Assembly (NCBI GenBank): GCA_019241495.1
Contig: JAFAWZ010000292.1
Coordinates: 1-36,267, forward strand
Length of the DNA stretch: 36,267 nucleotides
DNA from: Acidimicrobiales bacterium
GTDB lineage: Bacteria; Actinomycetota; Acidimicrobiia; Acidimicrobiales; Palsa-688
Direction of reading: 5' to 3'
The translations under genes and the position numbers were made by a program. Under the pieces are notes generated by a model that worked only from the letters and a program-made list of their open reading frames with translations, did no database searches and was not told the origin of the DNA. Positions 14,248 to 33,126 of the stretch are shown in pieces (position 1 is the stretch's first letter; every line of letters starts with the position of its first letter).

Positions 14248-15651
14248 TCACCCCATGGCGACGGGTGGCGGAACGTATCCGCCGGTCAGCTCGGCCAACC
14301 GGGCGGCGAGGAACAGGGGAGTGCGGTCTTCGAGGTAGGGTCCCACGACCTGGATCCCGACAGGAAGGCCGGAGGGCGCGAACCCGGCCGGTACGCAGGT
14401 CGACGGCAGGTAGGCGACGCCCACCAGCCCGGTCCACGCGAAGGTCCGGGATTGGGGCCGGGTCTCGCCGTTGATGACCACCGAGCGGTCGTTGATGGTG
14501 CCGTGGTGATCATGGCGGAACGGCAGCATCGGCATAACCGGGCAGAGGAGCACGTCGTAGTCCTCGAACCAGGCGGACCACAACCGACGCAAGAGCATGC
14601 GGTCGTAGTGGCGGTCGAGCCAGGCCCGGTGGTTGCCGCCGAGGGTTTCGGCTGTCTTGCCCTGGAAGCTCACCGAGACGGCGGGCAGGATGAGAGAGCT
14701 GAACAAGCGCTCGACCTGGCCCAGCTCGATGGGGGGTCGGGCCTCCGAGACCTGGGCTCCGGCTTTCGCCAGCGCATCTGCTGCGCCTTGCAGGACCGCG
14801 CCCGCCTCGGAGTCCACCGAGCACGCCGGGTCGTCCAGCCAGGTCCCGACGCGGTAGTCCCGAAGATCGGTATGGCGGGGCGGTGGCAGGGTCAGGCGCC
14901 ATGCCGTGGCCAGCTCGACGTCGGGGCCGGCCACCGTGTCGAGCAGGACGCCGAGGTCGTCCACGCTGCGGGCGATGGGGCCGAACACATTGATGTCGGC
15001 GTCGATCACCCCACCGCCCACCCGGTCGAGGTAGCCGCGCTGGGACACGATCCCGTAGCTCGGCTTGTGGCCGCACACCCCGCAGTAGCTGGACGGGATG
15101 CGGACCGATCCCCCGATGTCGGTGCCGATCTCGAAGCTGGTGAGCCCGGTGGCGACGGCTGCCGCGGCGCCACCCGAAGAACCGCCCGGGGTCCGCTCGA
15201 GGTCCCACGGGTTCGAGGTCGTGCCGAACATGTCGTTGAAGGTCTGGATGTCGCCCGACCACCTCGGCACGTTGGTCTTGCCGAAGACGATCGCCCCGGC
15301 CCGGCGCAGGCGATCGACCACCGGGGCATCGTGGGCCGGCACGTGGGTCGCCAGCTCGGTCGCCCCTCCGGTGGAGCGCAATCCGGCCACCTCGATGGCG
15401 TCTTTGATCGTGATCGGCAGGCCGTGGAGGGGCCCGAGCGGTGCTCCCGCCGCGGTGGCATCGTCGGCGGCTCCGGCCGCGTCCCGGGCGCCCTCGGTGT
15501 CGAGGGTCACCACCGCGTTGACGGCTGGGTTGATGCGCTCGATACGAGAGAGGAACAGCTCGAGGAGCTCCCGGCTCGACACCTGCCGATCGCGGATCAT
15601 CTGGGCCAGGCGCCCCGCCGGTAGGAGGGCGATGGAATCGTCGATGGTCAC
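14248..15651 (-). CDS. Amidase (amidase signature family, GatA-like)
   Basis: GPLHGLPITIKDAIEVAGLRSTGG, ERTPGGSSGGAAAAVATGLTSFEIGTDIGGSVRIPSSYCGVCGHKPSYG. GTG start at 15651 is 8 nt after TAGGCT; ORF track start 15690 probably too early. Confidence 0.92.
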   Translation of the reverse strand: MTIDDSIALLPAGRLAQMIRDRQVSSRELLELFLSRIERINPAVNAVVTLDTEGARDAAGAADDATAAGAPLGPLHGLPITIKDAIEVAGLRSTGGATELATHVPAHDAPVVDRLRRAGAIVFGKTNVPRWSGDIQTFNDMFGTTSNPWDLERTPGGSSGGAAAAVATGLTSFEIGTDIGGSVRIPSSYCGVCGHKPSYGIVSQRGYLDRVGGGVIDADINVFGPIARSVDDLGVLLDTVAGPDVELATAWRLTLPPPRHTDLRDYRVGTWLDDPACSVDSEAGAVLQGAADALAKAGAQVSEARPPIELGQVERLFSSLILPAVSVSFQGKTAETLGGNHRAWLDRHYDRMLLRRLWSAWFEDYDVLLCPVMPMLPFRHDHHGTINDRSVVINGETRPQSRTFAWTGLVGVAYLPSTCVPAGFAPSGLPVGIQVVGPYLEDRTPLFLAARLAELTGGYVPPPVAMG

Positions 15652-15693
15652 GGCGCCGAAGCCTACGGCGGGAACACCGCCGCCGGGCACCTC

Positions 15694-15826
15694 AGAAGCT
15701 GTCGCAAAACTACTTCGAGGTGGGAGAAGGCGGCGGCTCGTCCCATGCTATGATGCGAGCGCTGAGGCGAGTTGGTCGACGACGAGCCGCCGTCTTCTCC
15801 CTCCCGCGGGTTTTGCGACAGCTTCT
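15694..15826. mobile_element. MITE-like palindromic element, 'family A' copy 1 (complete)
   Basis: AGAAGCTGTCGCAAAAC (15694-15710) ... GTTTTGCGACAGCTTCT (15810-15826); inner arms GGGAGAAGGCGGCGGCTCGTC (15722-15742) / GACGAGCCGCCGTCTTCTCCC (15781-15801); no ORF of its own. Confidence 0.85.
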
Positions 15827-17184
15827 CAGCCGGTGATGTGCCGGGGTGCGAACAACACCCCGGGGTTCAAGGACCCGGCCGGGTCGAGGGCCTGCTTGAC
15901 AGCGCGCATGACAGCGAGCTCGGACGGCGAGCGGGACAGGTTCAGCCAACCCGCCTTGGCCCGGCCGATGCCGTGCTCCGCGCTGATCGATCCGCCCATC
16001 GACGCGACCAGCCGGAGCACCGCCTCGTCCACCGCCTCGTCTTCGGGCGGCGGCCCGACCACGTTCACGTGGAGGTTTCCATCGCCCACGTGCCCGAACA
16101 ACACCAGCCTGGATCCGCTGGCAGTGGCGCTGACAACCGAGCGCACCGCGGTCTCGAACTCCGCCAGGCGGGCCTGCGGGAGGGTCACGTCCAGCTTGTG
16201 GGGGATCCCGAGGGCGGAGACTGCCTCGGTGTGGCGCTCGCGGTAGGCCCAGAGCCGCTCGATCCCGGCCCGGTCCGCGGCGACCGCGGAGCCGTCGTCG
16301 GAGACGTCGAGCCCGGCCAGGGCCTCGTAGAGGGGTCCGGAGGGATCGGTCAACCCGGCGCACTCCAACAACAGGTACACCGCCCACGGTCGCCCGAACG
16401 GCGCGGCCAGGCCGGCGTGCTCGAGAACGACCTCGAGCCCGTCGTGGTAAAAGATCTCCGCCGCCTGCAGCCCTTCCACCCGCCTGCGCACCGAGTCGAC
16501 CACCGCCACCGCAGCGGCCGTATCGGGCAGGCCGAGGAGGGCCACCACCCGCTCCGGGTGGGCGGGAACCAGCCGCAGCCGGGCCGCGGTGATCACGGCC
16601 AGAGTGCCCTCAGAGCCGACGAGCAGCTGGGACAGGTCGTAGCCCGTGTTGTCCTTCACCAGCCCACTCAGGCGCGATACCACCAGACCGTCACCGAGCA
16701 CTGCTTCCAGCCCGACGATCTGAGCCCGCATGGGCCCGTAGCGCATCACGTGCAGACCGCCCGCGTTGGTGGCGATCATCCCCCCGACGGTGGCGCTGTC
16801 TCGGGCGGCCAGGTCCACCGGGAACGACAGCCCCGCCTCGCCGGCCGCACCCTGAAGGCGGGCCAGCGTCACCCCCGCCCCGACGGTGATCTGGCTGGCG
16901 GCCAGGTCCACGGATCCGAGGTGGTCGAGCCGGACCGTGCTGAGCAGGACCGGCGCAGTGCCGTCGGTCGCTGCGGGGGGGACGCCCCCGCCGACCAGGC
17001 CGGTGTTGCCTCCTTGCACCACTACCGGCGTCTCGCGAGCCGTACAGGCTCCGAGCACCGAGGCCACCTCGCGAGTCGACGCGGGGCGCACCACCATCGA
17101 GCACGGCCCACCGAAGCGGCGGGTCCAGTCCGACTCGAAAGGGGCCCTGAGGTCGGCATCGGTCAAAACGTGGGCCGGGCCCAC
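15826..17184 (-). CDS. FAD-binding oxidase (GlcD/D-lactate dehydrogenase-like)
   Basis: VVVQGGNTGLVGGGVPPA, GGMIATNAGGLHVMRYG, LSQLLVGSEGTLAVITAARLRLVP, GHVGDGNLHVNV, SAEHGIGRAK. Reading frame extends upstream to about 17213, so start uncertain. Confidence 0.92.
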   Translation of the reverse strand: MGPAHVLTDADLRAPFESDWTRRFGGPCSMVVRPASTREVASVLGACTARETPVVVQGGNTGLVGGGVPPAATDGTAPVLLSTVRLDHLGSVDLAASQITVGAGVTLARLQGAAGEAGLSFPVDLAARDSATVGGMIATNAGGLHVMRYGPMRAQIVGLEAVLGDGLVVSRLSGLVKDNTGYDLSQLLVGSEGTLAVITAARLRLVPAHPERVVALLGLPDTAAAVAVVDSVRRRVEGLQAAEIFYHDGLEVVLEHAGLAAPFGRPWAVYLLLECAGLTDPSGPLYEALAGLDVSDDGSAVAADRAGIERLWAYRERHTEAVSALGIPHKLDVTLPQARLAEFETAVRSVVSATASGSRLVLFGHVGDGNLHVNVVGPPPEDEAVDEAVLRLVASMGGSISAEHGIGRAKAGWLNLSRSPSELAVMRAVKQALDPAGSLNPGVLFAPRHITG

Positions 17185-26528: not shown

Positions 26529-27208
26529 ATGATGGCCGGTGTCCTGCTCCTGCTCGCGGCCGCGTCGGTGTTTTCCCTCGCCGTGCGGCCGGGATTCGCC
26601 GCGGCCGCGGGGCGGGAGGAGTTGTCCGCCGTCGGCAAGGGTCACACCCCTGCGGACGGCAATCCTCCGGATCAGCAGAGCCCTCCGGATCAGCACGGCG
26701 GCCTCGTCCTCCGCACGTCCAGCTCCGTCGAGAAGCCGTCGCAAAACCATTTCCAGGTGGGAGAAGTCGACGGCTCGTCTCATCCCCAGGATGCGAGCGT
26801 AGGAGAGAGTTGGTCAAAGACGAGCCGCCCGCCCGGTCAGACCAGAGAGGACGCCAACGGGAACGAGTCCCGGGAGGCGGAGTCGGCCGCCTCCTCGCCG
26901 CGGCGAGCGGTACCGGGCTCACGCCACCCGCCGATAACGCCGGGGCTCCGGCTGCCATCACCGCGCCTGGGCCCACCCCGCCGGCCTCGCGCCTGTTACC
27001 TCGCAAGGGGCTGGACGAACCGATGGTTGCCTCAGGAGGTCCGTGGCACGGTCCGTCCCTCAAGACGGCGGGCGGTCTCGGCGTTCCCATCGCGATCGGA
27101 GCGTCGGTCGCGGCCTTCGTCCTGGCTCAAGCCCTCATCGACCGCCGCGATCCCAAGATGTCTCGGGCGCCGCAGCGGAGCCGGGACGACACCGTTGGAT
27201 TCGAATAA
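26529..27208 (+). pseudogene. Secreted/membrane protein apparently split across two frames (signal peptide in one, C-terminal TM in another)
   Basis: Frame from 26529: MMAGVLLLLAAASVFSLAVRPGFAAAAGREEL. Frame ending 27208: LKTAGGLGVPIAIGASVAAFVLAQALIDRRDPKMSRAPQRSRDDTVGFE. Family A repeat inside. Confidence 0.5.
26731..26829. mobile_element. Family A palindromic element copy 2 (right end truncated)
   Basis: AGAAGCCGTCGCAAAACCATTTCCAGGTGGGAGAAGTCGACGGCTCGTCTCAT...GATGCGAGCG...GAGTTGGTCAAAGACGAGCCGCC aligns along copy 1, including its centre. Confidence 0.85.
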
Positions 27209-33103: not shown

Positions 33104-33126
33104 AGAAGCTGTCGCGAAACCCGCGG
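33104..33126. repeat. Family A element end fragment (copy 3)
   Basis: AGAAGCTGTCGCGAAACCCGCGG matches the reverse complement of copy 1's right terminus (AGAAGCTGTCGCAAAACCCGCGG) with one mismatch over 23 bp. Confidence 0.7.

Follow-up and report, generated by a model that had tools for sequence, protein, structure and literature searches.

The window, the whole 36,267-nucleotide stretch of Acidimicrobiales DNA that was analysed, contains a complete palindromic element wedged between an amidase gene and a FAD-linked oxidase gene, both on the minus strand. A first-pass annotation had described positions 15694-15826 as a two-tier inverted repeat with perfect 17-bp outer arms, an asymmetric internal loop of 11/8 nt, 21-bp inner arms with one mismatch and a 38-nt centre, an anatomy borne out by the arms, loop and centre and by the predicted RNA fold (-86.5 kcal/mol against -49.7 +/- 4.1 for dinucleotide shuffles; z = -9). 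The 17-bp arms do pair perfectly, but their outermost A...T belongs to a duplicated target, so that the ends measure 16 bp and the element proper spans 15695-15825. The features of the locus, and those of two further copies in the window, are as follows.

14248..15690, minus strand: amidase gene (PF01425), next on the same strand as the oxidase gene, with a GTG start 1 nt past the inner TGA copy
15692..15694, no strand: left copy of the 3-bp target-site duplication (TCA), identical to 15826-15828
15695..15825, plus strand: complete MITE copy of 131 bp (family consensus 132 bp), from sequence, BLAST and covariance model
15695..15710, plus strand: left terminal inverted repeat GAAGCTGTCGCAAAAC, shared with the sister family in genome G013; its outer ~11 bp also occur in IS5-family ISs of the order
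15711..15721, plus strand: left subterminal segment, the left side of the asymmetric loop; it differs from the right side, and its first bases, TAC, are common to the G013 family
15722..15742, plus strand: left inner arm, from arm pairing and RNA fold
15743..15780, no strand: 38-nt centre, homologous between copies
15781..15801, plus strand: right inner arm, from arm pairing and RNA fold
15802..15809, plus strand: right subterminal segment (TCCCGCGG), largely conserved with the G013 family
15810..15825, plus strand: right terminal inverted repeat GTTTTGCGACAGCTTC, from arm pairing and comparison with the G013 family
15826..15828, minus strand: right copy of the target duplication, which is the TGA stop of the FAD-linked oxidase gene
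15826..17184, minus strand: FAD-linked oxidase gene (PF01565, PF02913), ending in the duplicated TGA
26732..26829, plus strand: second copy, in the same orientation, right end lost (82% identity, E 1e-22)
33105..33126, minus strand: third copy, reduced to its right end, with TTA before it (23 bp, 96%, E 2e-5)

The copies that had been reported at 26731-26829 and 33104-33126 are both real, and the former is indeed homologous through the centre, but it lacks the right end and the latter consists of a 23-bp reversed solo right end.

The host assembly (G000) is a fragmented actinobacterial MAG of 2.72 Mb in 335 contigs, 89% complete. BLAST retrieved at least 40 near-full copies from it, the outer arm matched 140 times with up to 3 mismatches (7 times for a reversed control pattern), and a covariance model built from 29 copies located the family at 70 distinct places, a figure that includes fragments and short derivatives; 57 of the 70 measure 120 bp or more. 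The abundant genome-wide family predicted from the window alone is therefore real. Copies have a median identity of about 90% to a 132-bp consensus with perfect 16-bp ends and no transposase of its own. The 60 relatives searched, none of the same genus, held no copies (two weak partial matches), plasmids gave no match, and a literature search with the end sequence returned nothing relevant.

Alignment of the flanks of all 70 places revealed an identical TNA on both sides in 40 (22 TGA, 17 TCA and 1 TTA), TGA or TCA thus accounting for 39 of the 40 exact TNA duplications; most other places appear degraded or truncated. Because the flanks read CTN-AG, the preferred target is CTSAG with TNA duplicated, and because TNA stands on both flanks the element runs from the G of GAAGCTGTC to the C of CAGCTTC. 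Two further copies, at C332:17332-17463 and C60:2357-2488, are flanked by identical non-TNA triplets (TCG/TCG and TCC/TCC, respectively), explicable by relaxed targeting or by parallel synonymous drift in third codon positions. The target-site duplications that the first-pass annotation had proposed looking for are thus present, and together with IS5-family elements carrying matching ends they support its designation as a non-autonomous MITE: the element is shorter than 600 bp, has terminal inverted repeats and no transposase, and occurs as dispersed copies with duplications at many sites. The same annotation had offered a REP/BIME-like sequence as an alternative, that is, a repeat moved by a RAYT (Y1 transposase) as a single-stranded hairpin and inserted without target duplication, which would agree with a palindromic, mostly extragenic element of high copy number. 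REP/BIME sequences are palindromes of 20-40 nt, without target duplication and with a RAYT partner; the element is instead 132 bp long, has identical 3-bp duplications in more than 40 copies and carries conserved outer inverted ends of the DDE-transposon type, common to IS5-family ISs, making such an origin extremely unlikely.

G013, a genome of the same taxonomic family and another genus, carries GNAGCTGTCGCAAAAC elements whose consensus is likewise 132 bp long. The two consensus sequences agree over the left ~19-20 bp and the right 19-20 bp, including the asymmetric part beside the arms, while their centres are unrelated; identical ends with different fillings suggest that the shared ends mark the sites recognised by a common transposase. 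Copies in G013 are bordered by TGA, TCA or TAA duplications and at least four lie on stop codons. The exact element end was present in 4 of 397 genomes of the order. A scan of 85,000 genomes with TNAGNNGCTGTCGCAAAAC gave, beyond G013 and among the matches listed, mostly isolated ones; an IS1182-like element among those listed was discarded, as it did not match the TNA duplication.

Domain searches detected neither PF01609 (DDE_Tnp_1) nor PF13340 (DUF4096) in G000, DDE_Tnp_4 (PF13359) and ISAzo13 (PF07592) were absent from both G000 and G013, and no transposase with exactly GAAGCTGTCGCAAAAC ends was found. A pair of ends 1.08 kb apart on contig C33, considered as an autonomous copy, proved to be two degraded MITEs flanking an ordinary gene, both on stop codons, and a search of viral contigs for the transposase confirmed no relative. 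MITEs usually, though not necessarily, share a genome with an autonomous element that has their ends, and MAGs often lose repeated ISs; G000, 89% complete, yielded no such partner. The search for an autonomous transposase with matching termini, also suggested by the first-pass annotation, produced none with exact ends, but an order-wide search with PF13340 led to IS5-family elements that match over ~11 bp.

L333, 922-1860: complete IS5-family element of 939 bp, ends GAGGCTGTCGCGTAT / GAGGCTGTCACGTAA inverted, TTA on both sides
L340: IS5-family element, end GAGGCTGTCGCGCATG (partner 14/16), GAGGCTGTCGC next to TGA
L335: IS5-family element, end GAGCCTGTCGCGAATAT (partner 11/16), GAGCCTGTCGC, TAA on both sides
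L336: IS5-family element, end GTAGCTGTCGCGTTTTT, GTAGCTGTCGC next to TGA

The transposases of L333, L335 and L336 match both PF13340 and PF01609, and the similarity between the MITE and the IS5-family ends GAGGCTGTCGC, GTAGCTGTCGC and GAGCCTGTCGC is confined to ~11 bp. Plasmid relatives are annotated as IS5 family and often have TAA, TGA or TTA duplications. ISLrh, of the IS1031 subgroup, has the terminal inverted repeat GAACCTGTC..., favours TNA as its target and has inserted at a TGA (PMC12016507). With its TNA target, 3-bp duplication and ends shared over ~11 bp, the MITE matches, at the sequence level, the IS5/IS1031-like group in target, duplication length and outer end, and we infer that it was moved by an IS5 transposase. 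Derivation from a different DDE family that makes short TNA-like duplications, such as ISAzo13 or PIF/Harbinger-like (PF13359), is unlikely. ISAzo13 (PF07592) is common in related genomes (10 of 32 over the cut-off) and some of its transposases are flanked by TAA or TTA, but its ends are unlike GAAGCTGTCGC, for which it was rejected as the helper; searches of G000 and G013 turned up no PF07592 and no PF13359, and it is the IS5-family ends that match over ~11 bp. At L326 and L327, ISAzo13-type transposase genes of related genomes have weak inverted repeats and TTA or TAA at their bounds, which suggests that ISAzo13 elements, too, may duplicate TNA. The order also holds a further IS5-family group (L349, L350, L351 and L359), with ends of the GAGC..GCGCGGATA type and duplications of TTA or TAA.

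With genes called by a simple codon-usage caller, the TNA of 27 of the 70 copies coincided exactly with a called gene's stop codon. These include the window copy: the minus-strand FAD-linked oxidase gene ends in TGA at 15828-15826, and the duplicated TGA leaves its stop intact. At the same loci, stops account for 3% of the TSA and 8% of the CTSAG sites, and among the 72 CTSAG sites outside gene interiors 29 are stops and 43 intergenic. Since the share of copies on stops is no higher than this last background, no stop targeting is needed, and specific targeting of stop codons was rejected; target preference combined with selection against genic insertions, and their loss, is enough to explain the siting. 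The 27 copies at gene stops, and the very stable fold, could also point to selection, at gene ends, of a functional RNA or of a regulatory 3'-end element acting as terminator or RNA stabiliser, its mobility incidental or past. We consider this very unlikely, given that the duplications record insertion, that copies also lie inside and upstream of genes, that no T-tract was noticed after the stem, that an Rfam search with the element returned only matches below threshold, and that the siting fits the target preference.

The first-pass annotation called the element non-coding, which holds for the window copy and not for the family as a whole. In at least six genes a full-length copy sits within the coding sequence, or at its very end, and the reading frame stays open through the element.

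C332:17332: in-frame copy in an NAD-glutamate dehydrogenase (GDH) gene
C117:6899: in-frame copy in a RecD gene
C139:6006: in-frame copy in an acyl-CoA carboxylase alpha chain gene
C60:2357: in-frame copy in a TetR regulator gene
C193:3587: in-frame copy in a TgpA/transglutaminase protein gene
C274:1573: in-frame copy in a YgjP-like protein gene, two codons ahead of its stop

All six have the T of their duplicated triplet at codon position 3 and an insert that reads EKLSQN...FATAS, both orientations being used, and the insertion adds 45 residues to the predicted protein (132 + 3 bp). Open frames are frequent in DNA of 70% GC and most other frames of the consensus are themselves largely open, so these positions could be chance readthrough of long GC-rich frames, or pseudogenes, instead of real protein inserts. 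The phase used is, however, available at 20% of TSA and 43% of CTSAG sites in called genes, so that its use in six of six copies has p about 7e-5 or 6e-3, respectively, and coding signal is present on both sides of the insert for several genes. Moreover, in profile searches against PDB sequences, RecD, GDH and the carboxylase each aligned as two blocks, with a break and an in-frame resumption around the element; the alignment gap in GDH and the carboxylase is some residues wider than the element, and RecD without the inserted residues aligns as a single block. The TetR domain matches break off at the insert. Chance readthrough thus seems improbable, and we infer that the inserts are translated as part of the host proteins. 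The use of one frame in six of six copies, with others open, suggests that its hydrophilic, Gly/Ser-rich version is the tolerated one. Most G013 copies tested for in-frame inserts carry internal stops, so that this coding behaviour would belong to the G000 family and not to that of G013. Two copies with uncertain start codons may be N-terminal in-frame inserts: C150:1511-1642 (L012), near the N-terminus of an AurF-like di-iron protein (MAGNEP-VQKLSQN...), and C227:8472, before a GlnE-like gene named from its sequence alone.

The whole set of observations is very probably explained by a 132-bp MITE moved by an IS5-family (IS1031-like) DDE transposase acting in trans, its copies being kept at stops or in frame. 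The MITE ends would be the recognition sites of this transposase, supplied in trans now or formerly. The enzyme would cut at 5'-TNA-3', preferably within CTSAG, and fill-in would generate the 3-bp duplication that is seen in the copies. As TNA is nearly always TGA or TCA in this GC-rich genome, insertion exactly on a TGA stop would restore TGA and leave the gene intact, as the sequence of such copies bears out. Where the target T falls at codon position 3, 45 stop-free codons (132 + 3 bp) are added with the host gene kept in frame and presumably translated. Other genic insertions would mostly have been purged, and copies would therefore build up at stops, in intergenic DNA and as in-frame inserts. 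Transcripts of the element would form a strong hairpin that could, as is the case for ERIC and Correia elements, alter how stable the flanking mRNA is.

Other IS5-family MITEs (IS1031-like, with ISLrh as a described example of the parent type) have the same TNA target, 3-bp duplication, ends starting GA..CTGTC and no transposase; the family in G000 differs in that no exact-ended parent IS was found in the genome, in its long nested palindrome and in its in-frame genic copies. The latter recall Rickettsia palindromic elements (RPEs), described in accounts of Ogata et al. 2000 given in PMC10969869 and PMC2229807 as coding palindromes of Rickettsia lying in-frame in conserved protein genes. Both are palindromic, about 100-150 bp long and in-frame, with one reading frame, here fixed in six genes, and tolerated by the host protein. 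The G000 element differs in its actinobacterial host, clear TNA duplication (that of RPEs is marked '?' in Table 1 of PMC2229807), IS5-like ends and many stop-codon and intergenic copies; the comparison is one of behaviour. It works like an RPE and is here filed as an IS5-type MITE, not as an RPE nor as a REP/BIME. ERIC, YPAL and the 107-bp Correia elements are also MITE-sized hairpins between genes, some of them fused in-frame to genes (PMC2229807); they have other ends, most listed with TA termini, and occur in enterobacteria and Neisseria. RUP of Streptococcus pneumoniae is likewise a MITE for which mobilisation in trans has been proposed, by an IS that shares its ends (IS630-Spn1; PMC2229807), but that IS is of another family and RUP has stops in all six frames, hence no coding insertions.

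What is new is the combination, in an IS5-type MITE, of a stop-codon-preserving duplication with in-frame genic copies, which gives a hairpin MITE two ways to spare a gene-dense genome, namely rebuilding a TGA stop or adding an in-frame insert. We tentatively raise, as a possibility that we consider somewhat doubtful, that the family is an RPE-type coding palindrome whose mobility can still be read: an IS5-derived MITE with TNA duplication, a length of 3n and a stop-free Gly/Ser-rich frame in both orientations, tolerated on stops or inside proteins. RPEs and comparable coding palindromes could in that case be relics of this same DDE-transposon route, with the frame perhaps having been selected for tolerance. 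An RPE-like element with a 3-bp duplication and IS5-type ends makes the mechanism by which coding palindromes spread testable with an IS5 transposase.

Short derivatives of 47-74 bp keep both ends, and mostly the TNA flanks, without the centre. Those of 48-72 bp with both ends and TNA flanks are located at C19:2656-2727, C183:3241-3303, C187:2822-2871, C227:8472-8519, C307:8483-8532 and C91:7455-7517. They look like deletions within the hairpin; two of them share a nearly identical 50-bp structure and may be mobile in their own right or result from recurrent hairpin deletions. On C274:1-4564 (L072), a stretch of 2.3 kb holds three full MITE copies, one of them reversed relative to the other two, with one copy on a stop codon and one two codons before a stop.
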